Assembly (NCBI GenBank): GCA_964036045.1
Contig: OZ038385.1
Coordinates: 2,604,001-2,668,000 of the forward strand
Origin: Eutreptiella sp. 'Long Island Sound 2002'
Lineage: Eukaryota > Euglenozoa > Euglenophyceae > Eutreptiales > Eutreptiaceae
DNA: 64,000 nucleotides
Reading direction: 5' to 3'
This document shows positions 28,217-60,849 of the stretch, one piece after another. Numbering within the stretch: position 1 is the first letter of the stretch; each line of letters opens with the position of its first letter. The translations under genes were made by a program, and so were the position numbers. Below the pieces are notes generated by a model. The model did not search any database. It was not told the DNA's origin and saw only the letters and a list, made by a program, of their open reading frames with translations.

Positions 28217-28220
28217 GAGC
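28217..28220. repeat. TSD of element A, left copy (GAGC)
   Basis: GAGC precedes the TG start of the LTR and recurs at 33,072-33,075. Removing the element restores the unit sequence GGAGCGAGGCC. Confidence 0.8.
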
Positions 28221-29425: not shown

Positions 29426-29900
29426 TCGAGGCGGATTCGGTACGTGTGGCGTCATCCTTCTGATTCTTTCTTTCATCTTTGGACCTTTTCGCTTACCCCG
29501 AGTGCTTTCTTTTGAGAAGTCCCTTGACGCTTTTTGAAAGTCCTCAGTAGGTCTACTTGAATCATCCAACATGGCCTTTGGCTCTCTGAATCTTTTGCCT
29601 TGCACTGCATCACGGTTGCTCCTTTGCACCACTGCCGTTTTGATAATAAAACATTTATCATAAAATTCTGCTTGCTTGTTGCACGGATCCTGCTTATTGG
29701 TTGCACGGAAGCACAAAGCCTTGCTGCACGTGAACACAGACTCTTGTCGCAGAACACGGACTCTTGGCGCACGGAAGCACACAGCTCAGAGCACAGCAGC
29801 AGCACAAATCAACAGGGGTCCAACCCTTTCGAAGGTTTCTTCAGTACTTTCATAGGCTGAGACCTTCAGGCACTCTTGGTGCTCAGCTCCACGATGCTGG

Positions 29901-32575: not shown

Positions 32576-34515
32576 CTGGGTGCCGCCGGCGTACAATACA
32601 CCTTTGGCCCTCAACGAGGGCGCTGCTCTCCACGATGCTGTTGGCAGATTCTAACAGCGAGGACACTCTCTATCTGCGGCCTGCTACACGCCGCACTCCA
32701 CGGCCTTGGCGCCCACGATGTGACTGGAACGTCCAGCCACGAGGGGCGCTGATGACAGCGCTTGGGTCGCACAAATAAATCTAGGAGCCTTGCATGACTC
32801 CGACTACATGCCTGAGATGCGCACATGCAAACATGCAAAGAGTGCTACAAGAAAAATGCGCTGCACTGTCATCGCCAAATTTAATATTATAAAATATATC
32901 CTCAAAAAACATTGAAATCCTTAAAAAAAGCCTCCAGCACGCATTTAAAGCATGCTGGTCTTCTCTGTCCTCTGGCGTCAGCGAGGCTTTGTGCTGAGCA
33001 CTTAGCGCGTGCCGCTCCGCGCTGTTCTCTGAACAAAGACAGCGTTGGGCACAGGGGCCCCAGCTGCACCAGAGCGAGGCCTGCACCTGGGGATGGTCAG
33101 GTTGTGTCAGCATCAGCAGCTCTGGCTGTTCTCCTGAGGGGTGTGTGTAGCAGGTGGGCTGGACTACGCCCTCTGCTCTAAGAATGTTTTTCAGAGAACA
33201 GCGCGTGCTGCTGAAGTGGAGCGCGAGCACACTGCAGTGCCCCAAAGTCACCTGATTCAAAGAGACAGCCCAGCAGTTAATCCGAGCTGCAGGAGAGCTT
33301 TAATTGTTCCGTTTCCGCCTTTTTTTAATAGCTGTGATCCGTATTTATTATTATTATATTATAGTTGGCGCTTTGAATGTTGCTGATTGGCGCATTTTGC
33401 ATTCCAGACATATGAGTGTATCTGTCGGGGCCCATACAAGGCCCGCAGATTTATTTGTGCATCAGTGCCAGAAACGGTGCTTCAAAAATCATCGCCAAGT
33501 TCAAGAGGCGGCGCAGCGCTGCCAGCAGCGTGCTCCCTCGCTTTCGGATGCATCCACAGCATCCTGGAGGAGCCTGCTCCCTCATGGGGTGCCAGTGGAG
33601 AGTGCCCTGCATCGTGGAGACCAAGGACCCGTTGTGAGATCGCCACTAAGGAACAGTGGCGCTGTATATCCAATCAAGGATCAATGCAGCTGGTCTGCAG
33701 CTGCCGTTGACAGCTGCGTGCGACGTCCGCAAAGAGGTTTGAGCCTGCGGAAGCACTGTGTTTTCAGGAAAGTTTGGACCTCATCGGCTTTCTTGTGTTT
33801 TGTGCGACTGTGCGTGTTTTTGTGCGACTTTGTGCGACGGATCAGATTGGCAGCCTCACGGATTTAGCAAAGTTGGTGCCAAGATGGATATCAAGGAAAG
33901 AAACAAAGGGTCAAAAGAGATTTTGTATTTGAAATTTGATAGCCAGATTTGGAGATGTTTATTATAAAATTTTACATCACAAGTGAGGCTCAAGGCATCA
34001 GCAGCAGGGGTAAGTAACAAGCAGGATGCAAAACAAGTCAAGCAAAAGCAGAGGAAACCAAAGAGTTAAAGTATTTGCAGCAGCATGGTCAAGCGAAAAC
34101 CAAGAAACAAAGGATTCGTAAATTGGACTTCTACGAACCTGCTTCAAAATAAATCTGGCAGCTCTGTCGCAGGCAGAGCCACTTCTACGCCCTGATGGCA
34201 CGATTTCGTCGAAAGAAAGATCTGGGTGCTACAGTCTCGGAAGGAAGGACTACGAAAAGCGAGGCTGCAGCTTTGAGGGAAGAATCAAACCAGTTGCTCC
34301 CCACCGACGCAGTTTGGAGCGAAGCCTCCACCTGGGGATGTTCAGTTTGTGTCAGCATCAGCAGCCCTGCCTGTTCTCTTGAGGGGTGTGGGTGTAGCAG
34401 GTGGGCTGGACTACGCCCTCTGCTCTAAGAATCTTTTTCAGAGAACAGCGCTTGCTGCTGAAGAGGAGCGCGAGCACACCGCAGTGCCGCAAAGTCACGT
34501 GATTGAAAGAGACAG

Positions 34516-38725: not shown

Positions 38726-41700
38726 TGAAGCGGTACCCAGAACCTATGGCCCATGGCCCGGAGGCCTGTGAGCCGTCACACCCGTGCGGAAGCTGTTGAC
38801 ACTGGCTGTCAGCGGGATATCCCTGTTCTCTAACCCGCGAAATCTGGAAACCAATTTCTACCCAAGAAATCGATTTAGAATTACCATAATTTCATTGTCT
38901 TAGGCGATTTTCAGTCAGAAATCGGTGAAATACCCGATTTCTACCGCGATTTCTAATTGTCGTGTAATCGCCGCCTGATGTCCCCTGTTCGCGCGCTTTC
39001 CTCGCTTCTCCGTGGCGAGTTTTGTGAGGGATTTTTCTCGAGTACCTTTGAGGTTCTAAGAGAACTTAAGGGCTGAATCTAGAGGGTTTTGAATGTACTT
39101 TCATCTGGTGTGTTCACCAGAATTTTTCGCTGTTGCGTCTTCGAGAAAATCAGCGCGCAAGCTTTTCCGTCGATCGCTCGAACTCATGGTTCTCAAGGAC
39201 CATGAGTTCGGACAGAACCCTACATTCCCCCCCTATGCCTTTCCTCCATGCCCCTTTCGGGTGGGCATATCACTTTGTATAGGGAAGCGGGCAATGGCGG
39301 TGTTTTAGGCAGCCTATGGGTTTCGCAAACCCAAGTCGTTTGCGTGCGCAAACGCTAACTTTGTGGCCTTGTGAGCATGAACATTAACAACCGAAAACAA
39401 TGCTCACAAGACCAAGAGCCCTAGGCCCTTTTCGTTCTTCGAGCCAATTCAACGATGGCTCCACGCAATTCAATGCGTACCAAAAGTCTATTTTTGAAAG
39501 AGGGCAAGTATTGGTCGAAAATTACGCCAAAATGGCCAACCCCCCGAGGCTCGTACTCGAAGCCTATGGGGAGTTGAGCCTCGAATCAAGGCAATATGTA
39601 AAGTAGAGACCACGGAGGACATCGTGGATGGCTTGGTTGATTTTTACAAACTTGTCATCTATTTTATATAATTTCGCCTTGTGAGCACGCGTGCCATACT
39701 GCCTCTTTGCACACGTGCTCATATCCAAGCACTAATGACACGAGTGGGCGGATACAATCTAACCATAGTGGGCATATTTGGAGGCACCTAGTATGGGCCT
39801 ACTCCAAGAACGTTTACTCATATTTTTGCTCCTCAAGGTCCCAAAGATATGTTCATGCCAATACCGCCGATATATGCACTTTTTCCCATAAATAGTGTGC
39901 TTCAAGGATTGAGGTGTTAAAAATGCTTCCATTATGCTTTGAACCTCAACCCTTGTTGCAAAAGGGAAGCAAAGCTTCGGTTTGCATCCATGCAAAGGCT
40001 CAAGGCTCCTTTCTCTTGTGATACGGAGATACGATTTTTGGAGGGACCACTTTTGGGTGAGTTTTGGCCGTTTTGCCCAGAATGGCCACAAACCCCTTCT
40101 CCCCCTGATTTTGCCCCCGAGGTTGCGTGCGCCACTTGACCAAGGGTAAGGGCAATTCGAAGAGGGCACATAAACCCGCATTGAATGGGGTGTTTCCCCA
40201 TGTGGCCTCTTCTCTTGAAGGGAGAGTTGTGAGTCACCCAATTTGGGGTATGTTGCCATTCACCCTCATTTGTGTGTCACCTTCTCCCCAACAGAGAAAA
40301 TAGCTAGAGGCGACCATGAGGGTTGGCAAGCGGCATATATTGGGACCTAAGTCCCATATGTCTATAGCAGCTTTGGTGGAAAGGATCCTCGCCGTAGCCA
40401 TGGAGATATGGAATCATGAGTGTGGGCCCTTTTGGCCAAATTTCGCTGTTTTTGCCATTGTATGCCATATTGGAATTACCATATCTCCATGGGGCACGGG
40501 ATCTAGCCAGAAAGAAGGAGGAATATTGTAGCATATGACCGAGGGTTGAACGCCATTGAGCTTCGTATTTGCTCCTCCTGCTCATCCGGAGTTATTCAAC
40601 TTTTGGTGCAATCCATGATCTCCCCCTTTGCACCGCATGCTGCTTTCTGCCCCATCCGCGTGTTCATCCCCTCGATGAACAGCAAGCAGCCAGTGTGACA
40701 GCAAGCCATAACCCAGAGCATGGGACCAAAGGGGATATCAAGGGTTGTGAATCAAGGCTTGGCGCGTCAATATCGCCAAGGTTTCCTACCCTGGACGGTC
40801 GACCGAGACGACCGATTTTGCCATTTTGGCAGTTGTTGACCCAATTTGGATTGTCACCACGCCGAATGGCATGGAGATCTTTGGAAGCCAGAGACATGAG
40901 AGTCTTCGTTGGACTCCCAGTGGATAGCATATGGAATGGCGGATCCGATCTCCAAGCCGGCGTGGAGATATACCACCAGGGATACCCCCGATTTTGACTC
41001 ATTTTGAGCAGCCAAAATGACCCCCTTTTGGGACCCCAATTTCGCCCCCCCCGTGAAGTCAATTGGAGGCCCCATATCTCTATGCCCATGAAAGGTCCGG
41101 ACTCGATTTCAAGTTGTGCACTCAGATATGGGTCCTAGGTCCTGCTTCCTATCCTGTGAGCCATTGGCCGTGCCCTGGCCGGGCGAATCACCCGTGGGGA
41201 TGACGCCAATTTTGGTGATTTTGGCATCATGACCCCACTTGATGAACCCGTGGTGCCCTGATGCCGAGAGCTCAGAGGGAACCAGGTTGGGTGAGGACTT
41301 CAGAGTGTTTGTACGCGAAGCGCATAGGGTCAGTTGCCTCGTCACTGCCTCTGGCGGGTCCGGACAAGGGGTCAATTTGGGAGTTTTTGGAGCTAATATC
41401 AGTTTGGGCTGAAACAGCCCGTTTTCAGCTACCAACTCCTAGGGGATAATGGCGGGGCCTTATCTCGGGCTCAGAGGAGAGATGGGACCTGCCGTTGAGG
41501 GAGCATAGTGAGCCACTGTCGGTCGGCCTTGGAGCCACTTGGTCTGGACTGAATAGGGCATGGGTTGTGTTTGAGCCTCCGCCCCTGCCAGCCACTGAGA
41601 GGGTCGGACCTGGGATTGGGACATGAGTTGGGACTGACTGTCTTTTGTCCTGTGATGCCCTTACCCGAGTCCAGTCTTAACCCCATGTGTACATATCCTG

Positions 41701-44934: not shown

Positions 44935-46551
44935 ATGGAAGGAGTACGGCGTGAACATCTAGGTTCAGCGTACATGGAAGAACCACGGCGTAGCCACACG
45001 GATACCGTGGAGGAGATGGAAGTGGCGGCCGTGGGAGTCCGTGGGGGACGCCGATGGGAACCTCGGTCGACCTCGCGGCCGGCGTTCATGGTCTCTAAGG
45101 CCGCGGATGCCGCCGTGTGGGAAGAACTGAAGGACATCAAGCCCCCTATGTACATTGGCAACCCCCTCAACCTCGACCGCTTCTTGGAGAAGCTGGACGA
45201 TTGGGGGGTGACCGTCACTGAAGACATGGATCCTGCAAATGCGGAGAGACATGTCTTCAAACGGTTCAGGTACCGCCTGCCGGAAGTGCTCCAAGAGCTA
45301 TACTTCGTGGCGACCAAGGAGGGGAAAATCAAGACCCTCAAGGAAGCCAAGAAGTGGCTCAACGAGCAGGAGCGGGTGGACGCTCCGCAGGTGGCTGCCA
45401 AGCGGTGGAAGGCTATCAAGCTTGAGCATGATGGCAGGGAGATCCGCCTACGGAAATGGCGGGACTTCCGGGGGCTATATACCCTCTTCCGCCGCAACGT
45501 GGAGGACTGGAACGAAGGTGACGAGCAGGCCCGTCTGCTCTCCATGATGCCGGAAGCATGGATCAAGAGAGTCACCAAGGAGGAATCTAAGAGGGCCAAG
45601 TCCAACCACACGGTCAAGATGATGCTCCCCAAGGAGTATCATACGAACGTGGTGGCCTGGACGAGGAAGAACGTGGCCCGGGATATCAAACGGCACTCCC
45701 TGCAGAGCACTCTCCTCATCACCGTCTCGGTCGATCGGGAGAAGACCGCGATGTGGCGCCTTGATGAGTGTGACGTGAGCGGCCAGACCATCCGTCTGCA
45801 GGCCATCCCGGCGCGGATGAGTTGCGACGAGATCCTGGAGTGGATTGAAGAGGAGGTGCTTAAGGAGTACCGGAACCACCACCACAACCGCAGGTTGAGG
45901 CCCGGCGACCGTGACGTCAACTACGTTGGCGAGGGGCCTGGCGGGGAGGCTGCCATGGACCCAGCGGGAGCCGATGGCGATGAAGCTCTCGTCGACAATG
46001 ACGACGACGATGAGCCCGCCGAGATGGCCGTTTGTGCCTTCGTTGCCAACAACCTGAACGCGGGGAGCAACCGGGGAAGCTGGAAGCCCCTGCAGCAGGG
46101 TTTGAAGAAGAAGGAGAAGAAGGACCCCCGCCGCATTGGCAACCCTCCGCTGTCCTTTGGGGAGCTCATACGAGCTCACCCTCAGGGCTGTTTCGTGTGT
46201 TATGGGAGGAAGCAAGGCTTCAACCATGACCACCGGACATGCCCCATCCACCAGGCCGACACGGAGGCCCACAAGAAGGCGCACGGGTCGAAGAAGCGTG
46301 CACCCGCGGGTATCCGGGAGGCCAAATTCAGGGTGGACAAGGACGAGCTCTCCAAGCTGATGTCGGTGGGGACCAAGTTGGCCAAGGAGATCCAGGAGAT
46401 CAAGAGGAACTGGGTCCCCAGGTCGGACGACAAGAACAAGGAGAACAACAAGGACAAGGACAAGAAGGGTAGGAAAAGGGGAAAGAAGAAGGGTGTCAAC
46501 GAGTTTGATGCGGAGGAGAGTACCCCTACTACCACAACCGACGCCCCCTAG
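44935..46551 (+). CDS. gag: Gag capsid and nucleocapsid of chromovirus copy 2 (538 aa)
   Basis: Intact frame to TAG at 46,549. Residues ~70-260 form the retrotransposon capsid-type domain (NPLNLDRFLEKLDDW, KRFRYRLPEVLQEL). An Asp-rich patch lies near 355. An atypical zinc knuckle C-x2-C-x8-H-x4-C sits near 46,190-46,245. The tail is Lys-rich and disordered. Compared with copy 1 there is no frameshift. The ATG used is the first after the TAG at 44,923. Given the open frame upstream, the native N-terminus was probably further 5'. Confidence 0.88.
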   Translation: MEGVRREHLGSAYMEEPRRSHTDTVEEMEVAAVGVRGGRRWEPRSTSRPAFMVSKAADAAVWEELKDIKPPMYIGNPLNLDRFLEKLDDWGVTVTEDMDPANAERHVFKRFRYRLPEVLQELYFVATKEGKIKTLKEAKKWLNEQERVDAPQVAAKRWKAIKLEHDGREIRLRKWRDFRGLYTLFRRNVEDWNEGDEQARLLSMMPEAWIKRVTKEESKRAKSNHTVKMMLPKEYHTNVVAWTRKNVARDIKRHSLQSTLLITVSVDREKTAMWRLDECDVSGQTIRLQAIPARMSCDEILEWIEEEVLKEYRNHHHNRRLRPGDRDVNYVGEGPGGEAAMDPAGADGDEALVDNDDDDEPAEMAVCAFVANNLNAGSNRGSWKPLQQGLKKKEKKDPRRIGNPPLSFGELIRAHPQGCFVCYGRKQGFNHDHRTCPIHQADTEAHKKAHGSKKRAPAGIREAKFRVDKDELSKLMSVGTKLAKEIQEIKRNWVPRSDDKNKENNKDKDKKGRKRGKKKGVNEFDAEESTPTTTTDAP

Positions 46552-46554
46552 CGG
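46549..46554 (+). promoter_or_regulatory. In-frame UAG between gag and pol, copy 2
   Basis: TAG-CGG, same phase and context as 1,573-1,578 in copy 1. The pol frame continues without a further stop for 580 codons. Confidence 0.6.
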
Positions 46555-48291
46555 AGCTCCTGCAGCCAAGGGCCCCAGCTAGGGCGGTCGCAGGATGGTG
46601 TCGTGGGAAGCGCCACACCATCCCAGCTGGGAGACGATAAGCACAAAGGGACTGCCGCGGGCGGAAGGCCCGGTCCGGCACCCAAAGCGAAAGACAGTCG
46701 CTGTGGCGGGGTGAGGGCAAGTGAAGGCACGAACCCTTGCACCCGTCCATCTTTCGCGACCAAGAATGTATTTCATGTGCTTCAAGATCTATACGAGAGT
46801 ATCGGAGGATCACCCGGACCGCAGCTGGATGCTGCAGATGGGCAGCCTGAGTCCATTGTCCACGACCTGCACCAGTCGCTTGTTGAGCTTCTGGAACGGC
46901 GGGAGATCCTGAGCTTGCACGCCGTGCGCCGAGTGGGGCGTGAGTGGCAGTTGCACCTTAAGGTCCGTGCCTTATGCGGGGAAGTGGAGAAGGTCTTCGA
47001 CGTGTTGGTCGACACAGGAGCTCAGGTCAGCTTGGTCAAGGCTGGCCTACTTCCGCCAGAGTGTTTGACCGACAGTCGGAAACCTGTCAGACTGAAGGTG
47101 GCGAACGGCCAGTACATGGTGGGGAGCACGAAGGAAGCGGCTATTGGGCTGCAGTTCGTGAACCACCGTGAGCTGAGCCGCCCGGACCTCGGCAAGGAAA
47201 TCCTCCTGCAAGGTCGCTTCTACGAGGCCGAGATGGACTGGGACATGATCGTTGGGTACTACTTCATGATGGAGACGGACTCCGGCGTCCTCCAAGCCCA
47301 GGCCTCAATGACCCTGTACCAGGACGACCAGCTCTTGTGGCTTTCGTCACCTGAACACCATGTGGAATGCCAATGGATCCACCCGGAACGCAACCAGCTC
47401 AAAGTGGCCGCGCTGGGCACTGAGCCAACTGGGCCAGCAAACCAGGAGTACGGCGTAATGCCGGAAGTGGCAAACCGAGTGGTTGCGGACCTGGGAGCTT
47501 CGGGACTGGCCCTGGACGCGTTCTCTTCAGGAGCCTCCGCCCATTTTCGGGTTTGTGAGAAGTACTGGAGCGCCCAGAACTCAGCGTGGAAGAAGCACTG
47601 GGGTCCGCATCAGGGTTTGATGTGGATCCATTGCCCCCGTTGGGACATTCGGAGGGCGGCAGCGAAGATTCGCAAGGACCGCTCCAAGGCAGTGCTGGGT
47701 GTTCCTATGGGATGCACCAAGGAGGAAAGCACCCGACAATGGGTGGTCTCATTGACCAACATGACCTTAAACAAGGTCGTCCTACCGGCTGGAGAGAGTG
47801 TCTATCAGGACGCTAAGAGACAGCCCATGCCACCCCAGAGATGGCCAACGGAACTCCACTATGTGGATGGGGGCCTTGAACAGGCCGACGCCACGGACTT
47901 CGTGTGTGTCAACCGCATTGTAGCGGAGCCCTGGCGGCAATGCTTTGCCGTTTCCCCTGTTGACGTCGGAGAATCGCAGGACCCCCTAACGGAAGAGGAG
48001 TTGGATCTGGTTCAGGGGTATATGGATCAGCCCTTTCACGACTGGGGAAGCCAGCGTGAGGGCAAAGGCCAGGACAAAGCCTGGTGGGAAGTGGACTCGA
48101 TTGTCTCTGGTTCCTATGATGGGAATACTTTCGTACAGAGGGTGCTGGACCACATGTCCAGCCAGGACGAGCCAATCCGCGGAAACCCACCCACCTACAC
48201 CTGTTCCGAGGCAAGACCAGAGATGGCCCTTTGGGCCACCTGGGAAGACCACCTGCGCCGAAACCAAGTGGGGTCGCTACCCCTCAAGTAA
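46552..48291 (+). CDS. pol: Pol N-terminal part with aspartic protease, copy 2
   Basis: Open in the gag frame from the codon after UAG. Active site L-V-D-T-G-A-Q-V-S near 47,005-47,030. A ~350-residue linker follows, ending where a 4-nt deletion near 48,198 throws translation into a short wrong-frame tail (stop at 48,291). The first ATG, if one is used independently, is far inside, which again favours readthrough from gag. The uninterrupted linker here shows the target that the LINE hit in copy 1. Confidence 0.85.
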   Translation, partial: RSSCSQGPQLGRSQDGVVGSATPSQLGDDKHKGTAAGGRPGPAPKAKDSRCGGVRASEGTNPCTRPSFATKNVFHVLQDLYESIGGSPGPQLDAADGQPESIVHDLHQSLVELLERREILSLHAVRRVGREWQLHLKVRALCGEVEKVFDVLVDTGAQVSLVKAGLLPPECLTDSRKPVRLKVANGQYMVGSTKEAAIGLQFVNHRELSRPDLGKEILLQGRFYEAEMDWDMIVGYYFMMETDSGVLQAQASMTLYQDDQLLWLSSPEHHVECQWIHPERNQLKVAALGTEPTGPANQEYGVMPEVANRVVADLGASGLALDAFSSGASAHFRVCEKYWSAQNSAWKKHWGPHQGLMWIHCPRWDIRRAAAKIRKDRSKAVLGVPMGCTKEESTRQWVVSLTNMTLNKVVLPAGESVYQDAKRQPMPPQRWPTELHYVDGGLEQADATDFVCVNRIVAEPWRQCFAVSPVDVGESQDPLTEEELDLVQGYMDQPFHDWGSQREGKGQDKAWWEVDSIVSGSYDGNTFVQRVLDHMSSQDEPIRGNPPTYTCSEARPEMALWATWEDHLRRNQVGSLPLK

Positions 48292-51200
48292 GCTCAGTGG
48301 TCCAGGTGCCCGGAAAAGCCAAGGTGGAGTCCGATGATTGCCCCAAGATCCAGGCATTAAGGGCCAGGCTGAAGCAGAAGTATGGTCATTCGTTCTTCAG
48401 CGGAAAACCTGTGTTTCCCCCACCGGTGTGTGGACCGTATGGCGAGGCCAAGATACGACTGAAGCAGGACCCCCGTGTGTATTGACACCGGGAGTTCGCC
48501 CTTAGGGGCGAGAGGAAGGAGGCCATGGAGAAGATCCTCCGTGACTTCATCGAGAGAGGCTGGCTTGAGCCGTGCCACTCAGAGTGGGCCTCTCCGTGCT
48601 TCGTCGTCCCCAAGAAGGTGGCCGGTGAGTGGCGGCTGGTGGTCGACTACCGCGGCCTAAACGCCCAAATGCAGCATGACAGCTATACGCTGCCCCTCAT
48701 TGAGGACATGCTGCAAAAACAACACCGGCGGAGGATCTTCAGGGTGATTGACCTGAAACATGGCTATCATCAGATGCCTCTCGCCGACGAGTCCCGTGCC
48801 TGCACAGCCATGAGCACCCCACTTGGACCTCTCCAGTGGAAGGTGATGCCCATGGGCGTTACCAACGGCAATGCGGCTTTTCAGCGGATGCTGGAGAACC
48901 TGCTTGAGCCGGTGCGTGACTGTGCGGACCCCTTCGTGGACAACGTGATCATCGCGTCCGGGGACCCCAGTATGAGCTATGAGGAGCTCCGGGAGGCACA
49001 TGAGATGGACGTCACCCGAGTGCTTGACCTTCTGGTTCGGCACAAACTCACGGGCAGCAGTGACAAGGCCACCATTGCGGTAAGCGAGGTGGCCTTCGCT
49101 GGCCACGTCGTTGGGAGCGGGCAGGAGAAGCCCATACCTGGCAAGGAGGCTGCGATCGAGCACTGGGAAAAGCCCAAAACAGTCTCTGAAATACGGTCGT
49201 ACTTGGGGCTCTGCAACTACTACTCGGGGCATATCAAGATGTATGCCGAATATGCAGCCCCCATGACGACCATGCTCAAGGGCAACCGAGAGGAGACCAA
49301 GAAGGGGTCCAAGAAGGCTTTGGTCTGGAATGATGAGTCCGACCGTGCCTTTGAGGGGATGAAGCAGGCGCTGCTATCCGCAGTGGGTCTGCACCTCGTG
49401 GATCCTGACCGAGGGTTCGTCCTCCGCACTGACGCTTCCGACTACGGCGTTGGCGCTGTGTTGGAACAAGTGCTTGACGATGGGAGGCACGTGCCAGTGG
49501 CCTTCTGGAGCCGAGTCCTGGCGGAAGGCCAGAGACGGACGTGGACGCCCCGGGAAAAGGAGGCGTATGCCATCGTCATGGCTCTCAGGAAATGGGCTGG
49601 GTACATAGCCCTCCATCCCGTCACCGTCTGCACCGACCATCAGAGTCTGCAGTCATGGCACAAGGAGCACGTGAACACCCCCTCAGGTCCCGCCTCCCGA
49701 CGGGCAAGATGGCATGAGACCTTGGCCAAGTTCGACCTCACGGTTGTGTATGTTCCTGGCAAGGACAACGCCGTGGCGGACTGTCTCAGTAGGTGGGCCT
49801 ATCCCGCCAGCAAGGGCATGACAGACGTGTCTGCCCATGGCGATGAGGCGGAGACCGCTGAAGCCAAGAGAATCATAGAAATGGAGCGCCTGATGGAGGA
49901 GGAGGGTGTTAATTGCTTCGTCGTCATGGCTGCGGATGTCCCCCTTGGAACGAGCATGGGCAGAGCGATCAGACTACTCGCCCCTGACGGAGCGGAGTCC
50001 GACAAGCACCTCTTCCCTGAATTCTGCCTCCAGGACGACTGGACCGACGACTACGCCAAGTCCGAGGCCTTTGAGGCCGAATATAGGGCTGTGACCGACC
50101 CTGATGACGGGCAGAAGTTCCCAAAGGGGCTGACTGAGAAAGATGGCAAGCTCTACCGGAACGGTAAGCTGCTAGTCCCAGAGTCCCCAGTGCTCGGGCT
50201 CTGTGAAGCTTGGCACCACCACATGATGCACCCAGGGGTCAAGAAGCAAGCCCTGGACATGCAGCGCCGGTTTGAGATCGACCAGATCGGTCTCTACACC
50301 GCCATCAGAAAGGTCAGGAAGAATTGCTCGGTCTGTCAGGCCTGCAATCCCGATAGGCGGAACGTCAAGGGGGAAGCCCAATGGACTCCGGTGCCTGACC
50401 AGCCCATGGAGAGCGTGGCCATGGACGTCTTCTCCATGCCTGAAGTTCACATTGGCAAGGAGACCTTTGACTGTGTGTTCCTTTGTGTGGACCGCCACAG
50501 CGGCTACGTAGTAGCCGTTCCGGCACGCAAAAAGGGGTTGCTTGCCAAGGAAGTGGCAGTCCTGATGATTCGTCATTGGCTGACCGTCTTTGACATACCC
50601 CGCACCATTTGCAGTGACCGAGGGCCCCAGTTTACTGGAGGCTGGTTCAAGGCTATGTGTTTTCTCATGGGAATACGTCATGTCAAGAGCGTCGCCTATC
50701 TCAGCCGGTCCAATGGCCGGGCTGAAGTGGCTGGACGGCAGCTGTTCGAGAAGCTGCGCGAGATTCACATCACCAATGCACGTCGGAACTGGTTTGAGGA
50801 GATGTGGCCCGCTCTGAAGGCCCATCAAGACACCCCCACTCCGGCAGGTTTGTCCCCTCAACAGATTCTGTTCGGCAGGGACCCCCTTGGTCGGGGACCT
50901 CCCTTGTCTGGTGATGGTATGGCCATGGACGCCAAGGAATTCTTTGCGCGGCAAGATGCAACGGCGCGGGACATCCGCCAGCAGCTCGAGAAGGAGCATG
51001 CTGAGCGTCAGAAGTCCGCCCCGAGCTCGACAGCGCAAAAGTTCAGGGTGGGAGACCGGGTGTGGGTGATCAGACCCCGCCCTATGGGCACCCACCGCAC
51101 CAAGACCTGGTTCACACCCGGAGAGGTGGTCCGCAGGATTGGTGAGGACACCTACCGCATCAAGGAGGGTCACGGACAGTTCCGGGAGCGCCACGAGAGT

Positions 51201-51537
51201 CAACTCCGTGTGGGGGAACCCGACCTCCGTGGCCAACATGTGTCCCTGGACTATGCCGCACATGAGGCAGATTCGGACGACGACTATGCTGAGCAGGACG
51301 ACTATACCGTCGAGAAGATCCTGGCCCAGCGTCCGAACGCCTCGGCACCCGGAGGCTGGGAGTTCAAGGTTCGTTAACGAGGCTATGGGCCGTCCCACGA
51401 CACCTGGGAACCCGTCTCCTCATTCGTGCCGCGGATCAATACCCCCTTCATGGACTACATCCGCAGGCACAAGACCAAGATCCATGTCTCGGACTTGGCA
51501 GCACTCACCCGGGCGATTGCAGCCAGGGGCGCCTGAT
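48231..51537 (+). pseudogene. pol: RT, RNase H, integrase, chromodomain of copy 2, inactivated
   Basis: One frame covers the interval but has TGA at 48,483-48,485 (copy 1 has CGG) and TAA at 51,375-51,377 (copy 1 has TGG inside the chromodomain). The RT active site reads FVDN because GAC became AAC at 48,942-48,944, removing a catalytic Asp. RNase H (TDAS, EKEAYAI, TDHQSL, VADCLSR), integrase zinc and D-D-35-E motifs are otherwise intact. The lost chromodomain tail is still readable to 51,537. The copy could not make functional RT. Confidence 0.92.
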
Positions 51538-52999
51538 CGCCGCCGTGAGCTGTCCCCTGATGCAGTTTGAGCGCTTGTTTGGTCGACGGATTGTCCCTCA
51601 CTTGCTTGCTCTCCTCCATCTTCCGGTGACCTGCCATCAGAGTGGCCATATACCCCCCCCTGCTGAGTCAAGAAGAGGATGGCCCCTCTCTTCTACTTCT
51701 GTTCGTTACTCCCCGCCTGCTGAATCCTTGGGAAACCAGGCAGGGCGACTGACTTTAACTTTTCCTAAGCTCTTAGGCACTTGAAGCCCGTACGACGTTG
51801 CGCAACGGATGCCGCTGTCATCGGCATTGCGATTTTTGGGTTTGTGGTCTGGTCCCATGGCACTTGCGGGATCTAGACCAGTCTACGTGTGTCTGCAGAC
51901 TATATATGGCCTGATCTCAGGCGTCTTTCTATCCGTCCTCTTGCATATTCCTTATTCTGACCGGGGCGTGGTTTGGCGCTCTATCCAGAGTGTGTTTACA
52001 CGCCTATTTACCTGTTTATTGCTTACTTTTCTGCCCCCCAGGATATGTGCATCTGTATGTTGCGTCTTCATATCGACTGTTTCTCCCCCCCGAGGGGATG
52101 CGAATCGGAATACGATGGCGCCCTGAGTCGCCGTGTACATGCTCTTACATGGGGTCCAGCCTGGACCAGTACCTAAGTACGGATTCTTCTGTGTGAGTGC
52201 CCGTGATACCGTGTGCCCTAGTGGCTGTGATGTGCTGAGGTCCTGATGGCGCCAGGCGGGAAGCCCAGTTGCCTGACTACACTCCCAGCGGTCCGCCACT
52301 GTCAGTCCCAGTGTGAGCCTACCGACTCGCAGACGCACTTGCAGTCGGGTGGCGACCTCCGGTGTCCTGACCTTGGTCAGTCTGCCCCGGAAACTGGTGG
52401 TTTGAGGAGTCGACGCCTCTGCCCAGACTGCATGGGGACTCCCCCATGCATGGCCTTCGTGGTAATGGGGCGAGGGAAAAGACGGCCTTGATGCCCGATC
52501 CCTTATGGAGGAGCTCGTTCGACTTTACCACTCTGGACTCGCGTCGTGGATATGGACATGGTGCGCCCAAGGAAGGACCCGTGGGGACCCTCCCCCAGAC
52601 TGCGGCCTTGGGAAGCCTGGGGTACCCTGATGGATCTTTGTGGTCGCTTTCGACCTGTGGGACCACCTCGGTTGTCGTGTGACGCCTATGTTGGCCGTGT
52701 ATGCCCCTGCCACTGTGGTAGTGACCGTCGCAGCCGGCACCCGGTGCGCCTGGTGTGGGTTAACGGGTCCTTTGGATGCCGAACAATCGCCGCCAGGACC
52801 CAGGACTTGATACTTGATACTATACTGGCAGTTACTAACAGCTACAGCACCGTACCTGTCTTCCTGTGGGATTGTACTGGGCAGCCTAACCCGCAACTCG
52901 GCCTGAAGTGAGGATGTGACACCCCCCCCTTCAGGGGATGGTCCTGGGTACCCGCTGCCATGCTTGGGTGTTATCGGCCCCCCCCCAGGGTTTGCTCTA
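51538..52999 (+). other. Conserved non-coding 3' internal region of copy 2
   Basis: Counterpart of 19,862-21,336. No gene. TATATATGG at 51,901-51,909. Confidence 0.75.
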
Positions 53000-53010
53000 A
53001 GGAGGGGGGT
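53000..53010 (+). other. Polypurine tract of copy 2
   Basis: AAGGAGGGGGG immediately before TGAAGCGG of the 3' LTR; identical to copy 1. Confidence 0.9.
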
Positions 53011-55604
53011 GAAGCGGTACCCAGAACCTATGGCCCATGGCCCGGAGGCCTGTGAGCCGTCACACCCGTGCGGAAGCCGATGACACCGGCTGTCAGCGGG
53101 ATATCCCTGTTCTCTAACCGGCGAAATCTGGAATCCGATTTCTAACCAATAAATCGATTTAGAATTACCATAATTTTATTGTCCTAGGCGATTTTCAGTC
53201 GGAAATCGGTGAAATACCCGATTTCTACCGCGATTTCTAATTGTCGTGAAATCGCCGCCTGATGTCCCTTGTTCGCGCGCTTTCGTTGCTTCTCCGTGGC
53301 GAGTTTTGTGAGGGATTTTTCTCGAGTACTTTTGAGGTTCTGAGAGAACTTAAGGGCTGAATCTAGAGGGTTTTTAATGTACTTTCATCTGGTGTGTTCA
53401 CCAGAATGTTTCGCCGTTGCGTCTTTGAGAAAATCAGCGCGCAAGCTTTTCCGTCGATCGCTCGAACTCATGGTTCTCAAGGACCATGAGTTCGGACAGA
53501 ACCCTACATTCCCCCCCTATGCCTTTCCTCCATGCCCCTTTCACGTGGGCATATCACTTTGTATAGGGTAGCGGGCAATGGCAGTGTTTTAGGCAGCCTA
53601 TGGGTTTCGCAAACCTAAGTCGTTTGCGTGCGCAAACGCTAACTTTGTGGCCTTGTGAGCATGAACATAAATAACCGAACGCAATGCTCACAAGACCAAG
53701 AGCCCCAGGCCCTTTTCGTTTTTGGAGCCAATTCAACGATGGTTCCACGCAATTCAATGCGTACCAAAAGTCTTTTTTTCGAGAGAGGGCAAGTTTTCGT
53801 CGAAAATTACGCCAAAATGGCCAAACTACCGAGGCTCGTACTCGAAGTCTATGCGGAGTTGAGCCTCGAATCAAGGCAATATGTAAAGTAGAGACCACGA
53901 AGGACATCGTGGATTGCTTGGTAGATTTTTTCAACTTTGTCATCTATTTTATATAATTACGCCTTGTGAGCACGCGTGCCATACTGCCTCTTTGCACACG
54001 CGCTCATATCCAAGCACTAATGACACGAGTGGGCGGAGACAATCTAACCATAGTGGGCATATTTGAGGGCACCTACTATGGGCCTACTCCAAGAACGTTA
54101 ACTCATTGTTTGCTCCTCAAGGTCCCAAAGACATGTTCATGCCAATATCGCAGATATATGCACTTTTTCCCATAAATAGTGTGCTTCAAGGATTGAGGTG
54201 TTAAAAATGCTTCCATTATGCTTCTAACATCAACCCTTGTTGCAAAAGGGAAGCAAAGCTTCGGTTTGCATCCATGCAAAAGCTCAAGGCTCCTTTCTCT
54301 TGTGATACGCAGATACGACTTTTGGAGGGACCACTTTTGGGTGAATTTTGGCCGTTTTGCCCAGAATGGCCACAAACCCCTTCTCCCCCTGATTTCGCCC
54401 CCGAGGTTGCGTGCGCCACTTGACCAAGGGTAAGGGCAATTCGGAGAGGGCACATGAACCCGCATCGAATGGGGTATTTCCCCATGTGGCCTCTCCTCTT
54501 GAAGGGAGAGTTGTGAGTCACCCAATTTGGGGTATGTTGCCATTCTCCCCCATTTGTGTGTCACCTTCTCCCCAACGGGGAAAATAGCTAGAGGCGACCA
54601 TGAGGGTTGGTAAGCGGCATATATTGGTACCTAAGTCCCATATGTCTATAGCATCTTTGGTTGAAAGGATCCTCTCTGTGGCCATGGAAATATGGAATCA
54701 TGAGTGCGCGCCATTGAGTTTCGTATTTGCTCCTCTGGCTCATCCGGAGTTATTCAACTTTTGGTGCAATCCATGATCTCCCCCTTTGCACCGCATGCTG
54801 CTTTCTGCCCCATCCGCGTGTTCATCCCCTCGATGAACAGCAGGCAGCCAGTGTGACAGCAAGCCATAACCCAGGGCATGGGACCAGAGGGGATATCAAG
54901 GGTTGTGAATCAAGGCTTGGCGCGTCAATATCGCCAAGGTTTCCTACCCTGGACGGTCGATCGAGACGACCGATTTTGCCATTTTGGCAGTTGTGGACCT
55001 ATCTTGGATTGTCACCACGCCGAGTGGCATGGAGATCTTTGGGAGCCAAGATCATGAGAGTCTCCTTTCGACTCCTAGTGGATGGCATATGGAATGGCAG
55101 ATCCGATCTCCAAGCCGGCGTGGAGATATACCATTGGGGATACCCCCCATTTTGGCTCATTTGAGCAGCCAAAATGACCCCCTTTTGGGACCCCAATTTC
55201 ACCCCCCCCGTGTGGTCAATTGGCGGCCCCAAATCTCCCTGCCCATGGAAAGTCCGGACCCAATTTCAGGTTGTGCACTCAGATGAAAGTCTTAGGCACT
55301 GCCTCCTATCCTGTGAGCCATTGGCCTTGCCCTGGCCGGGCGAATCACCCGTGGGGATGACGCCAATTTTGGTGATTTTGGCATCATGACCCCACTTGAT
55401 GAACCCGTGGTGCCCTGATGCCGGGACCTCAGAGGGAACCAGGTTGGCTGAGGGCTGCAGGGAGTTCGTAGGCGAAGCGCACTGGGTCAATTGCCTCGTC
55501 CCCACCTCTGGCGGGTCCGGACAAGGGGTCAATTCTGGAGTTTTCGGAGCTAATATCAGTTTGGGCTGAAACAGCCCGTTTTCAGCTACCAACTCCTAGA
55601 GGAT

Positions 55605-55645
55605 CCCATGAGACCCACTGGGGGGGGTATTTTGTTCGAACGAAC
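55605..55645 (+). repeat. Left TIR
   Basis: Starts CCCATGAGACCCAC, then a G run, GTATTTT and GTTCGAACGAAC. Pairs with 60,319-60,359. Confidence 0.9.
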
Positions 55646-55692
55646 TTCAGTCTTCGACGAAGATTCGAATCTTCGAACGAAGATTCGAATTC
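55634..55692. repeat. TTCGAA palindrome cluster 1 (left end)
   Basis: Interleaved TTCGAACGAA / CTTCGAACGAAG / ATTCGAAT motifs, each self-complementary or complementary to its neighbour. Confidence 0.88.
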
Positions 55693-55811
55693 CAAGACTG
55701 TATTTGCTTTAATCGCAATTCAATTAAATCCAATTGAATCCAAGCTGCTGGGGAGAATTGCCGCAAAAGCGCAGCAACAGCAGCGCGCGCACCAGATTGA
55801 CAGGCGATTGC

Positions 55812-55874
55812 CGCAGACTTGTGCCAGAAAAACGCAGATTTGTGCCAGAGAGACGCAGATTTGTGCCAGAAAGA
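55812..55874 (+). repeat. 21-bp direct repeat x3 in the transposase 5' leader
   Basis: CGCAGA(C/T)TTGTGCCAGA... starts at 55,812, 55,833 and 55,854. Confidence 0.85.
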
Positions 55875-55935
55875 AGGGTTTTTTTTGTTTTTTCAACTGA
55901 TTTGTTGTATTTTTAAGGGTGTCACTGTTTGACCA

Positions 55936-57745
55936 ATGGTGCAACTTGGAATTACGCTCAAAAACGCGGTAGGCACGACGAATGCTTATAGCCAGGACGT
56001 TGAGGACGCGCTTGTGCAATTTTCCACCTCCTCCGGCCTGGGACGCCAGCTTTTACACTCAATCTACACACGAGTCAACCCAGGCGCTGACAAGCAGAGA
56101 TTGAATCAACTTCTACGGTGGCACAGCGATGCTCAATGCTCGCCTGAAGAAGCAGTCGCTTTGCTTCTCGATTTGGGAATCCCTAGACGCCGCCTTCGGG
56201 TTCTATCGCGCTTTATTTCCAAGCGTGCGGACGTATGGTACAAACAGACTGGCCTAAGGTTTGGGAAACCAATGCCAGGCCGCCGGAGAGTCAACTTGGC
56301 TTGGAAAAGGATGAAGGAGCCCCTGCACCTTGTTGGCCACATCGACAAGAAAACTGGCATCCGAAATGTCTCCTGGCCGTTTGATCACTGGATCAACTAC
56401 GTTTTCACACAGCCTTGCCTCTATGAAACTCTACAGCCCAGCAAAGATGGGTTGGTTTTCATTGTGAGTGGCGATGGTTATCCTGTAGGGGGTGTAAGCT
56501 GGACTCAGCTTACCATTCGCATCCGAAATCATGAGCATCTAGCCCGCAATGCAGCACACATTTGGGTTTTAGAGCTCGCATACTGTGGTGACTCCAATCT
56601 GAAGGATTTGCGCCGGGTCTGGAAAAAGAATCTGAGGGTGTGTTATTTCTTCGAATATTGCCTTCGTTCGAACCTTCGAACGTTCGAACGAAGCTTTTCC
56701 TTCGAACGAACATGTTTTTCGAACAAAATTTTGATTGCGCTTTGTACGCTACTAGGTCCTGCAGCGGATCGTAACTACGCGATCCGTCATGGTGAAGGGC
56801 GCACGCTGTGCGGCAAGTGTTATGCTGGGCGGGGATTTACTGTTTTTGAAGAAGTTTTTGGGACTTACTGAGCATTGGTATATACCGTCAGTTCACAACT
56901 TGGGCCTTTGGAACCCTCTCAAGAGGCGGTACCTGGGCTGTCACCGGCGCAGAACGCGCACGGGTGATGCGTCCCGACTTGGCAAGACCCCTATCTGCAA
57001 GGGAGCTCGTGGCTGCGCTTCAAAACCTTTGCTTCAAGTGCCACGACACCATGCCATTATTTGTGTTCTTCATATGCTTATGCGAATGGGTGCTTTGCTT
57101 GGGGAATACTTGGAAAGGCTATGCTTGTCCGCCAGCAGGGAAGCACGCAACGCTATCAATAACATGCTGAAGATTGCTCTGTGTGGTTGGCAGCTAGGTG
57201 GAACTTGTAGACCTGATGGACAAGAAACCAAGCGTTTGTTTTTTATATGGGATGGTATTGCTCATGTTTTGGGGTTGGCCGACGAGCACTTGGGTAACCA
57301 GGCTGTCATGCGATTGCGGGACGTGATGCAACGGCTCTATCGCACCTATCAGCGCATCGACATTGACCTCCCAGCGGACTGTCGGCAGGCGGCCTGGGAA
57401 TTTCGCGCACACTGTTTGCCTGATACCCGTTCTCATTATCTGATAATCTTGCAGTTCGATGTGCCCAGAATCCTAGAGGCGATAGCACCTTACGGGCTTG
57501 GGATGTACTGCCAGGACTTGGCTGAAACAACGAATGCCAAGCTAAAGGATTTCTACTTGCGGTTCACAAACAGAGGGGGCAGCACCACAGATGACTACCA
57601 GCTCTCTGCTCTACTACAAACCATGGAGCATGCCTTCTTGTACACGCACTCCCATATTGTGACTCACGGTACAACGCGCCTGGTCTCTTGCCCAAACGCT
57701 GCATTGTTCGAATCCTTAATAGACGATGCCGCTCAATGGTGCTGA
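55936..57745 (+). CDS. DDE-like transposase, two exons (563 aa)
   Basis: Exon 1 is 55,936-56,637 (234 codons) and exon 2 is 56,756-57,745. The 118-bp intron has GT (56,638) and AG (56,755) ends and joins in phase 0. The predicted protein has a helical N-terminus, then V-S-G-D-G-Y-P-V-G-G (Asp180), M-L-G-G-D-L-L-F-L-K-K-F-L-G-L (Asp261) and A-E-T-T-N-A-K-L-K-D-F (Glu491). This order and the 'GDLxFL..LGL' pattern resemble RNase H-fold DDE/D transposases, and its place inside TIRs supports that. The catalytic assignment is inference. The reading frame has no lesion. The stop overlaps the ATG of the next gene. Confidence 0.72.
56638..56755 (+). other. Intron 1 of transposase gene, containing TTCGAA cluster 2
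   Basis: GTGTGTTATT...CTACTAG. The cluster occupies 56,649-56,724, nearly the whole intron. Without splicing the frame would run on to 56,871 and lose the second catalytic half. Confidence 0.75.
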
Positions 57746-59986
57746 CAAAGGAAGACAAGGCCGATGTCGCAAGACTGGTGGCGGTATGTGTTATTCTCCA
57801 AGCCCTGCAGGCATGCGTTGTAGTCCTTCGAATTTAGTCTTCGTTCGAATCTTCGAATCCTCGAACGAACTCTCGTTCGAAGATTTTTCTTCGTTCGAAT
57901 ATTCGAATCTTCGTTCGAAGATATGTTTCGAATCTTTCGCGCTGTGCTCAGGAGTTGCTTCAGGCGCACCCAACTTCTGCCCCAGCGTCACGATCAGCGC
58001 CAGGAACACCTTCCCAGAGTAGTACACAACTGGCTCAGCACCCAGCGCCGCAGCGTTCAGCGGATTTGGAGCCGTCACCATCCCCTTCTCGCCGTTTGGA
58101 TGACCCGCTAGATTTTGGATCCCGGGATTCAGAAGAATATGATCCGGATTACGTGGTGGTGAACGAAGTGTTCGATGTCAGCGCCGAGTTCCACACTTGC
58201 CGCCAGGTAATCGTTGAATCCGGAGTCACCCGCCCCTACCTTGACCTCATTCTAGGGAAATCCGTACCCAATCCGCATACGCCCATTTTCGGGGACCCGA
58301 AGTACGCTTGGCTTACGCCACTGTCAACCTATGGGCGCTGTTTCGGAAAGTGTTTATCAGCCGATTGCAAAGATGTGGCTGTGGAGAGGGACTTGCCTTG
58401 TGCACTGGTCGCCCGCGCCTTCCCCTTCGCAGTCCCGAACAAAAAAGGCACCCCAACCCCGATAATACGTATGCTTGCGCTTGTTTGGCACGCCTACGGC
58501 GCAGTGGGGAGCTGGCGTGAAGACCGTACCGTGATGCTCAGATTCCCCTCCTCAGAGCCACCAAGGTTGGGCAAATGTACATCAACGGGCCGCTTGAAAG
58601 GCGTCAAGGTCACCGCTCAGGCGCGGGGTGGTGGTGAGGCAGCCCAGACGGACGAAGGAGCGCAGCAAGCCGGGGGAGTACAACAATTGCAAAGCACAAC
58701 ACCGGCGAAGTGGCAGACGGTGCTCCAGGCAGCAGTCGCAGCAGGAGTGCAGCATGGCTACATGGGAGGGAACATTCCTGAATGGGAGGTACCGCATTTA
58801 CCTTGTAGCTGAGCGCTTTTGACCATGCATGCGTCCTCTACGTCATTCTTCGAAAAACATTCTTCGTTCGAAGAAAAAAACGTTCGTTCGAACATTCGAA
58901 TCTTCGAACGAAGATTGTATTCGAAGTCTTTTACCGCTCCACTGCCCACAGGTTGCAGCAACGCAAACCAGCGCCGTTGGCGTCAGGTGGAAGCTTCAGC
59001 TACCAAGTCGTGGAATTGAGACGACCGTGACTGCGGGCAGCCTGCTCAACGACCTCCTAACGAAGCCTGCGAGAGCACTGACGGTCCTCGGAGCACTCCA
59101 AAACCATGAAGAAGGTCGCAGAAAGGTGAAGTCGATGCCAACGTGGGTCAACCTGAGCCAGGGTGGTTCCACGTTGCATTCCCCTGAGGCAACCGAAAAT
59201 AAAGCGTCGACGACCAGAGCTGGTGTGCGGGGCAAAGATCCACAACCCGTTGTGTCCGGACGACGGGCAAAGAACCTTGCCGAGATTCTCTCGTCTTACA
59301 AGAAGACAAAGAAGCCGAAGAAGAGACCACGAGCGAAGCCAGCGGCTAAGGAACCTCCGAAGAAAAAGGCAAGGCTGCTGCCGGGTGAGAATTCGGAGAG
59401 TGAGGAGTTCGAAGAGACTGAGGAAGATGAGGAGGAGGAGCCGCCTTCCGGAGATGAGGAGGAGGAGCCGCCTGCCCGAGATGATGACGATGAAGACGAA
59501 ACCCAGGAGACACAGATTCCAGACCGAGGGGCACTGCCGTGGGCATGGCTTCCCCTCCAACAAGAGGACCAGTGGGGAGCGTGGAGAGGAGTGCCGATTT
59601 CGAAGTGGCGCCCCTGGCGAACGGAGATACCCAGAGACATCCTGCAGCAGAAGACCAAACTGGGCCGTGCCGGTACAATCTTTTGGGTCCCTGCAGACTA
59701 CAACACTGCCATGTGGCATTCTGTGGGGGAGTATTGTGTTGCGGCCCGAAGCTACGCAACGGAGGAGGAGTGCAAAAACGCGGCGGCAGTGGCGTCGGCA
59801 ACTGGTGGCGTGCCAGCTCCAAGTGCCAAGAAGAAGAAAGTGAAGGCAAAGAGGCCAAAGAAGAAGAAGAAGACGCCAACGAAGAGTGGTGGAAAGCAAG
59901 AAGAAGAAGATGCCGGAGAGGGAGACAAAGAGGATACGGAAAAGAAAGACGAGGTTGCAGTACTAGTGTCAGGCAGTGAGTCATGA
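57736..59986 (+). CDS. Second transposon gene, three exons (639 aa), overlapping the transposase stop
   Basis: ATG at 57,736 lies inside the transposase end: ATGGTGCTGA contains both the start and the upstream TGA. Exons 57,736-57,783, 57,952-58,788 and 58,952-59,986 join in phase 0 at GT-AG borders. The protein has a short helical start, a Ser/Pro/Gln-rich linker, a folded-looking middle (ADCKDVAVERDLPCALVARA, RMLALVWHAYG) and a basic nuclear-localisation-like stretch (KKTKKPKKRPRAK). Then come Glu/Asp runs with tandem EEEPP units, a Trp-rich C-terminal module (WVPADYNTAMWHSVGEYC) and a Lys/Glu tail. Function unknown; perhaps a DNA-binding helper. A frameshifted single long gene is the alternative. 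Confidence 0.6.
57784..57951 (+). other. Intron in gene 2, containing TTCGAA cluster 3
   Basis: GTATGTGTTATT...GCTCAG. The cluster is at 57,826-57,934. The 5' end resembles that of intron 1. Confidence 0.72.
58789..58951 (+). other. Intron in gene 2, containing TTCGAA cluster 4
   Basis: GTACCGC...GCCCACAG. The cluster is at 58,846-58,926. Splicing removes an in-frame TGA at about 58,810. Confidence 0.72.
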
Positions 59987-60049
59987 GCCAGGACTCAGAG
60001 AGCTACATTGGACAGGGACATTGGTGGTTCTGCGGTTCTGTTGTTGCCT

Positions 60050-60159
60050 GTATGTGCATTTGTAGACGCCGCGTCTTTTTCTTCGAAAAATATCTTCGTT
60101 CGAACATTCGAAGGTTCGTTCGAAGAAAAGTCCACCACATTTCGAAAACACATTTTCAG
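60050..60159 (+). other. Possible 3' UTR intron with TTCGAA cluster 5
   Basis: GTATGTGC...CATTTTCAG (a second AG follows at 60,167-60,168). The cluster is at 60,081-60,147. It lies after the gene 2 stop (59,984-59,986). Called by analogy with the other introns. Confidence 0.4.
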
Positions 60160-60264
60160 GGCATTCAGGTGGTTGCAGGCTGAATCTAAAGAACCAAACC
60201 CTCAAAAATACCTGTGTTGAGCATTTTATCGCAATGTTTGCAGCAAAACGGCCACAACAAAGGC

Positions 60265-60330
60265 GTTCGAACAGTTCAAAACTTTTCTTCGTTCGAAGAA
60301 ATAATCTTCGTTCGAAGGTTTCGTTCGAAG
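60265..60330. repeat. TTCGAA palindrome cluster 6 (right end)
   Basis: CTTCGTTCGAAG units adjoining the right TIR. Confidence 0.85.
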
Positions 60331-60359
60331 AAAATACCCCCAGTTGTGGGTCTCATGGG
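60319..60359 (-). repeat. Right TIR
   Basis: Inverse of 55,605-55,645, ending GTGGGTCTCATGGG. Confidence 0.9.
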
Positions 60360-60849
60360 ATAATGGCGGGGCCTTCTCTCCTGCTCAGAGGAGAGTTGGG
60401 ACCTGCCATTAAGGGAGCATGGGGAGCTACCGTCAGTTGGCCTTGGAGCCCCTGGTCTCCCAGGAACTCGCCTGTGGCTGGGCGGTACACCCTCCCCCAT
60501 TGGCAGGGTTTCAGGGTCCGGACTGAGTAGGGCATGGGTTGTGTTTGAGCCCCCGCCCCTGCCAGCCACTGAGAGGGTCGGACCTGGGATTGGGGAATGA
60601 GTTGGGACTGAGTGTCTAATGTCCTGTGATGCCCTTAGCCCAGTCCAGTCTTAACCCCATGTGTATATATCCTGATGTGTTGCTGTACATACTTCTGTTC
60701 CCTTGTTTCAGAGTGGCAAGGATCCTGAAACGCTTTGTCACATGACACGAGCGTAATGATGCCCCTGTGAGCGCAGTGCTTTGCCTGCCTGCTTGCTTGT
60801 GCGTGTCACCGCAGCATCCCGTGGCCAGGCCCCCCACGGGAACGCGTCA

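Follow-up and report, generated by a model that had tools for sequence, protein, structure and literature searches.

TTCGAA clusters in the predicted introns and beside both ends of a Eutreptiella DNA transposon as candidate binding sites for an element-encoded protein

Introduction

Why does a mobile element carry one palindromic motif both beside its ends and inside its predicted introns? The question is raised by an element at 55605-60359 of a 64,000-nucleotide stretch of Eutreptiella sp. 'Long Island Sound 2002' (contig OZ038385.1, positions 2,604,001 to 2,668,000), hereafter the window. An earlier note on this DNA had described a 4.76-kb DNA transposon with six clusters of TTCGAA and related motifs, and had offered two explanations. 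Either transposase-binding palindromes are hidden in introns, or the introns arose from an introner-like unit related to the element's ends. In this study, we analysed the element, its copies in the genome and its predicted proteins. We propose that the six clusters are bound by a predicted protein of the element, which would cover the element end to end and would probably prevent its silencing. This reading is tentative, and we give it a probability of roughly 0.4.

Systems of this kind are described in the available parts of several papers. VANC21 of the Arabidopsis element VANDAL21 binds arrays of YAGTATTAY in the introns, intergenic DNA and terminal noncoding DNA of its element (PMC5735166), and it removes methylation along VANDAL21 (PMC5735166, PMC10398659). 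TnpA of Spm activates methylated Spm (PMC10398659). TNPA of Spm/En binds subterminal repeats, which are cis-determinants of excision (PMC2613891). Introners, by the same kind of partial source, are copies dispersed across many genes of the host (PMC9860276, PMC7789003).

Results

Six TTCGAA clusters in the element

TTCGAA occurs 40 times in the window, and 36 of these matches lie in the element, while shuffled sequences gave 10 on average and 17 at most. Six clusters, for which no strand is assigned, hold 33 of the 36:

55635-55689: left subterminal cluster, 4 TTCGAA
56650-56723: intron 1 cluster, 6 TTCGAA
57827-57932: intron 2 cluster, 8 TTCGAA
58849-58925: intron 3 cluster, 6 TTCGAA, in the opposite orientation to the intron 1 cluster
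60082-60146: cluster of the 3' untranslated region (UTR), 5 TTCGAA
60266-60329: right subterminal cluster, 4 TTCGAA

The arrangement described earlier, two subterminal clusters, three intronic and one in the 3' UTR, was thus recovered far above the shuffles. The remaining three TTCGAA are isolated in coding exons (57707, 59408 and 59599), which contradicts the statement that coding exons are free of the motif. The motif TTCGAACGAA, searched on both strands, matched 16 times in the window, always within 55635-60329 (100 shuffles: mean 0.05, largest 1). All four ATTCGAAT of the window are also in the element. Restriction of the motifs to the element within the window therefore stands for these two, but not for TTCGAA, of which four single matches lie outside (14776, 29828, 40156 and 43594). 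Of the three motifs said to be interleaved, ATTCGAAT contributes only four times. Start-to-start distances between clusters are 1015, 1177, 1022, 1233 and 184 bases; a spacing of about 1.0-1.2 kb describes the first four gaps and not the last.

The element is mobile and keeps its clusters across copies

The boundaries of the element are as follows, with the basis of each in brackets:

55605-60359, plus strand: whole mobile element with CCC...GGG ends (inverted ends, empty paralogous site, 39 further loci)
55603-55604: left target site duplication AT (empty-site alignment, 2-bp flanks of other copies)
60360-60361: right target site duplication AT (empty-site alignment, 2-bp flanks of other copies)
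55605-55618, plus strand: left terminal inverted repeat CCCATGAGACCCAC (end comparison)
60346-60359, minus strand: right terminal inverted repeat (end comparison)
41443-41447: empty site in a paralogous host repeat (matches 54709-55604 and 60357-60458)

A self-comparison of the window placed the element in a host repeat, whose left part corresponds to 40551-41447 (92.5%) and whose right part corresponds to 41443-41545 (86.4%). When the joined flanks were compared with this second host-repeat copy, 4755 bases were absent there and AT was present once. The inverted ends, the empty site and the duplicated flanks confirm that 55605-60359 is a mobile DNA element. Inward of CCCATGAGACCCAC, both sides show a G run, then TATTTT and then TTCGAACGAA. 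A 21-base tandem repeat (2.9 copies) was also seen in the 5' untranslated stretch at 55812-55872.

The genome searched was assembly G000 (2.28 Gb, 2205 contigs). With the first kilobase of the element as query, the best 40 of 623 candidates were all at least 99% identical. The second exon of open reading frame 2 (ORF2) of an old copy matched 138 places (the best 138 of 669 candidates). The copy number is above one hundred. We fetched 39 copies found by the first-kilobase query, and the sample is therefore biased to copies bearing exon 1. They comprise 23 full-length copies, 13 internally deleted copies and three without the right end. CCCATGAGACCCAC was present at both ends in 36 of the 39, and 27 of these 36 had identical 2-bp flanks; the other nine mismatch, several at one base only. 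The duplicated dinucleotides were aa, gt, ag, ct, ta, ca, ga, at, tt, tg, ac, gc and cc. As these vary among copies, the AT of the window is no target rule, and the strict AT preference suggested by the window alone was rejected.

The clusters were then counted in the fetched loci, where the stretches were located by exact anchors and a few loci were counted twice. Each stretch held 3 to 6 TTCGAA for intron 1 (n=33), 6 to 8 for intron 2 (n=36), 3 to 6 for intron 3 (n=33) and 3 to 5 for the 3' UTR (n=35). Copies with absent or randomly placed clusters had been named earlier as an observation that would speak against the proposal; among the fetched copies this check did not go against it, every anchored intron stretch keeping 3 to 8 TTCGAA. 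With intron 1 as query, 38 of the best 40 of 319 candidates were identical across all 118 bases. In one locus (L018), intron 1 has a 21-base duplication at its 3' end, beside the cluster, and is 139 nt long.

The motif cores are conserved between subfamilies

A search with P0021 revealed an older subfamily of the element. Two of its copies (G000:C3:23536159 and G000:C23:32157236) are 83-86% identical to P0021, and their second exon of ORF2 stays open across 324 codons. The conservation test used three old copies, in short windows around the six clusters. The expected cluster was present in 13 of 15 old-copy windows; the other two, both of the copy designated C3, missed their target, with one placed ahead of the element and the other within exon 1. 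We used sites at which at least two old copies agree, took TTCGAA from either consensus and compared them with the young majority.

None of 199 motif sites had changed between old and young copies. Changes were found at 12 of 306 spacer sites within clusters, at 16 of 369 noncoding sites elsewhere and at 14 of 512 sites in exons. The difference between motif sites and all other noncoding sites (28/675) gave a Fisher value of 0.0009, and that between motif and spacer alone gave 0.004. When the motif mask was shifted, 48 positions gave 0.043 changes per site and at least 1 change. In a second, partly overlapping older set, 43 diagnostic changes were found in 2959 sites and none fell on the 156 motif sites. 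Individual units do differ: intron 1 lacks its first TTCGAA in both old copies covering this position, and one cluster unit is absent at the right end of old copy C3. Variation among young copies is mostly post-insertion and says little; their non-CpG motif sites vary slightly less than others (4/3456 vs 278/95731). TTCGAA cores are more conserved between the subfamilies than the surrounding noncoding DNA. Together with the same cluster places in diverged copies, this supports the first of the earlier explanations, binding palindromes housed in introns, with binding itself a likely reading of the conservation.

The same data bear on the explanation that the clusters have no function and are simple repeats driven by slippage, piling up where no coding constraint applies. 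In its favour, noncoding DNA generally evolves fastest, and L018 has the duplication beside a cluster. Yet the cores were unchanged while the spacers changed, and diverged copies have the same cluster layout. We regard this explanation as the least likely of those considered here.

The clusters appear confined to the element

An introner-like origin would mean that one palindromic unit related to the element's ends was inserted or duplicated to form the introns, with any function being secondary. The internal clusters themselves offer some evidence for it. All four have in common an ordered core, TTCGAA-N7-TTCGTTCGAA-NN-TTCGAA, which is missing from both end clusters and lies on the plus strand in introns 1 and 2 and the 3' UTR and on the minus strand in intron 3. 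Of 20000 motif-and-spacer permutations, 24 placed the core in every one of the four clusters, for a pattern picked after looking. The clusters of introns 1 and 3 match in inverted orientation (81% over 81 bases), and all three introns are in phase 0.

We therefore searched the genome for clusters elsewhere. A pattern excluding the four known internal clusters gave three matches, all in copies or derivatives of the element. A second pattern, which also fits the right end, gave 209 matches; among the 100 listed, 94 were right-end-like and six were not. Four of these six were fetched and all proved to belong to element copies, three with an identity of 92 to 94% to the element. Over the two patterns, 7 of 7 off-pattern matches checked were inside element copies. 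The other two of the six are at G000:C3:16479103 and G000:C3:141841154; the latter looks like a different repeat, of TTTCGAACGAA. In viral contigs, the pattern TTCGAACGAAGATTCGAA matched twice (L001 and L002), and both look unrelated when read around the match. In the viral-collection contig L002, a stretch of TTCGAACGAAGATTCGAAATTTCGAACGA at 500-860 is accompanied by numerous repeats resembling GAGACTCATTCTCAATAAG; it is apparently unrelated.

Confinement of the clusters to the element is well supported, though not proven. Host-wide introners were rejected on the seven checked matches, none of which showed spread into a host gene. Among the anchored fetched copies none lacked an intron. Old and young subfamilies have the same intron places, so any intron gain predates both. 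The introner-like alternative of the earlier note thus keeps the common core and the inverted clusters in its favour, but we consider it distinctly unlikely. Since the motif is conserved and the seven matches are within the element, the clusters have the appearance of selected DNA sites specific to the element, not of introners spread across the host.

Folding of the introns does not clearly set them apart

Palindromes could also act in RNA, where hairpins would bring splice sites together or regulate splicing. Against dinucleotide shuffles, introns 1, 2 and 3 gave folding z values of -2.16, -5.96 and -5.26, and 7 of 200 shuffles equalled intron 1; by this measure the folds of introns 2 and 3 are much more stable than expected. 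Each TTCGAA, however, pairs with itself. When the motifs were kept in the shuffles, the fractions at least as stable were 0.90, 0.09 and 0.10; introns 2 and 3 tend towards stable folds but do not reach the 5% level. The hairpin as main role was rejected, as the folds are unremarkable against the motif-keeping shuffles. The same motif stands in introns and beside the untranslated ends, which favours a role in DNA over one in RNA, and we judge the RNA-level explanation very unlikely. These results favour selected DNA sites that are common to ends and introns.

Two predicted proteins, one of them a candidate transposase

The coding features, all on the plus strand, are as follows:

55936-56637, plus: ORF1 exon 1, with GDGYP as candidate first catalytic D (open frames, splicing model)
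56638-56755, plus: predicted intron 1, GT-AG, 118 nt, phase 0 (GT-AG in 24/24 full-length copies)
56756-57745, plus: ORF1 exon 2, with GGDLLFLKK and ETTNAKLKDF as candidate second D and E (open frames, splicing model)
57736-57783, plus: ORF2 first exon, its ATG overlapping the ORF1 stop (splicing model)
57784-57951, plus: predicted intron 2, GT-AG, 168 nt, phase 0 (GT-AG in 24/24 full-length copies)
57952-58788, plus: ORF2 second exon (open frames, splicing model)
58789-58951, plus: predicted intron 3, GT-AG, 163 nt, phase 0 (GT-AG in 23/24 full-length copies)
58952-59986, plus: ORF2 third exon, with Lys-rich and Asp/Glu-rich stretches (open frames, splicing model)
60050-60159, plus: possible 3' UTR intron, GTATGT...TTTTCAG, 110 nt (GTATGT in 23/24 full-length copies)

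Removal of the three predicted introns joins the open frames, as the earlier note had expected, and gives an ORF1 of 563 aa and an ORF2 of 639 aa. Without splicing, the ORF1 frame stops at 56871, and the ORF2 frame meets a stop in intron 2 and another in intron 3. There are thus two ORFs rather than a single one, and the stop of ORF1 and the start of ORF2 overlap by ten bases at 57736-57745 (ATGGTGCTGA). ORF2 might be translated by reinitiation, from a transcript of its own or after alternative splicing. The fourth internal cluster does sit between GTATGT and TTTTCAG of the possible 3' UTR intron. Among the 24 full-length copies, the window's included, ORF1 is open in 20, ORF2 in 20 and both in 17. 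Between the young and older copy groups, 12 of 30 coding changes are synonymous (expected fraction 0.239), and this excess may be a modest sign of protein constraint.

ORF1 is the predicted transposase, from a possible D, D, E-like set that was picked by eye, is split by intron 1 and is joined only through its splicing. Pfam had no family matching ORF1 even at E values as high as 10, and for ORF2 it gave sub-threshold low-complexity matches only and none above cut-off. ORF1 exon 2 had no PDB match and no relatives in viral and bacterial/archaeal contigs, and its structure model was unusable (mean predicted local distance difference test score (pLDDT) 33.9, two-sequence alignment). A collection of 5.77 billion proteins was searched three times, yielding 18, 16 and 32 unnamed ENA entries close to the query and no distant relatives, by a method that depends on shared 5-residue words and is blind to distant relatives without them. 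The candidate binding protein is ORF2, which has basic and acidic stretches.

Deletion derivatives and a role in transposition

The clusters may instead be transposition sites. A TNPA-like accessory protein would then join the ends, the internal clusters would serve as looping docks in an element of 4.8 kb, and there would be no anti-silencing. Clusters do lie at both ends, and the first TTCGAACGAA follows the inverted repeat at corresponding positions on the two sides. The subterminal repeats bound by TNPA offer a precedent in the available part of that source (PMC2613891), and the unchanged 199 motif sites fit such a role equally well. As far as described there, the Spm/En sites are subterminal, and clusters in every predicted intron would be left unexplained.

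Deletion derivatives bear on this explanation. Seven of the 13 keep all clusters (L021, L022, L027, L037, L043, L046 and L049). The other six (L011, L016, L017, L028, L041 and L047) are without one to three internal clusters, yet still have both ends, which speaks against a need for internal docks. One deletion junction is common to L021 and L049, and another to L027 and L037, which have different flanks. The L027/L037 junction, the only one found at two places in the genome in this way, keeps all clusters, while junctions losing internal clusters were found once each (L017, and L057, a 1.1-kb derivative without the intron clusters). These counts would fit a cis need for the internal clusters but are far too few to decide. 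In a search for short end-to-end derivatives with joined ends, the best 40 of 1007 candidates gave right ends only. A role confined to transposition seems to us less likely than not.

Discussion

Our preferred reading, in which an element-encoded protein binds the clusters and counteracts silencing, can be set out as a chain of steps. The predicted ORF2 protein would dock on the TTCGAA clusters. Dense arrays would be impossible in coding exons and may for that reason be housed in introns and UTRs. Binding, by analogy with VANDAL21/VANC21 or Spm/TnpA, would loosen repressive chromatin along the element. As there is a CpG in each TTCGAA, methylation could switch binding.

Several observations weigh against this reading. 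Five of 204 motif sites were dropped from the conservation test, no two old copies agreeing there, and the contrast would largely disappear if these five were counted as changes. CpGs in the motifs of young copies vary like other CpGs (13/1728, 0.0075, vs 107/13152, 0.0081). Six of the 39 fetched loci lost internal clusters, and copies therefore persist without them. Pfam recognised no DNA-binding domain in ORF2, and a partial structure model of ORF2 was useless (mean pLDDT 32.7, 16 sequences). Finally, the cluster layout is nearly constant here, whereas VANC motifs, in the accessible portion of the source, differ in number among related copies.

In other respects the element resembles VANDAL21, which in the part of the report available also has a dense short motif in introns, intergenic and terminal noncoding DNA, restricted to one family, and a second gene besides the transposase (PMC5735166). 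The earlier note had called such an arrangement unusual for a transposon with terminal inverted repeats, which overlooks this precedent (PMC5735166). The motif here is a palindrome in mixed orientation, unlike YAGTATTAY, which the same partial source describes as arrayed in one orientation. The element also differs in its 2-bp duplication and in having no Mutator-type Pfam domain. Target duplications of Mutator-like and VANDAL elements are about 9 bp, and membership there was rejected on the 2-bp duplication and the Pfam result for ORF1.

Spm/En likewise has two element products (TNPA and TNPD) and short motif repeats beside both ends, as far as its available description goes. A CACTA element described in part of one source has 13-bp CACTA ends and a three-base duplication (PMC2613891). 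Unlike Spm/En, the present element has CCC...GGG ends, a 2-bp duplication, no CACTA-type (tnp2) Pfam domain and motif clusters also in predicted introns; CACTA/EnSpm membership was rejected on the ends, the duplication and the lack of a Pfam family for ORF1. ISL2EU elements have a 2-bp AT duplication, and membership was rejected as the duplicated dinucleotides here are varied and not AT-specific. Introners of Aureococcus, Micromonas and Amoebophrya also have palindromic sequence within introns; the present searches confirmed no cluster beyond the element. By the tested features, the element is outside the VANDAL and Spm families, and the claim is therefore that it works like them.

A wider claim would be that the element represents a type of DNA transposon not yet described (with CCC ends, an unspecific 2-bp duplication and a transposase without detectable relatives) that independently evolved self-marking. 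Its own protein would recognise TTCGAA arrays spaced by about 1 kb, the introns would exist to house the arrays, and the whole length would be marked against host silencing. We consider this doubtful and rather unlikely as a whole. The literature searched, with most subscription journals outside its scope, held no description of the element or of TTCGAACGAA arrays.

The window also contains two Ty3-like retroelement copies (1-21366 and 44987-53028), about 91-92.5% identical over kilobases, with chromodomain-like polyprotein ORFs. Long direct repeats are nested at 23748-34515, with 88-94% mutual identity.

Sequence-specific resistance to silencing has been worked out mainly for the VANDALs of Arabidopsis and Spm of maize, according to the parts of the literature available. 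If our reading is true, the Eutreptiella element would be an independent case, in which an unrelated-looking element with many nearly identical copies has the same architecture. As the motif cores are conserved, the binding protein is directly searchable. The reading also makes testable the idea that transposon introns may be kept as places for DNA sites that are barred from coding exons.

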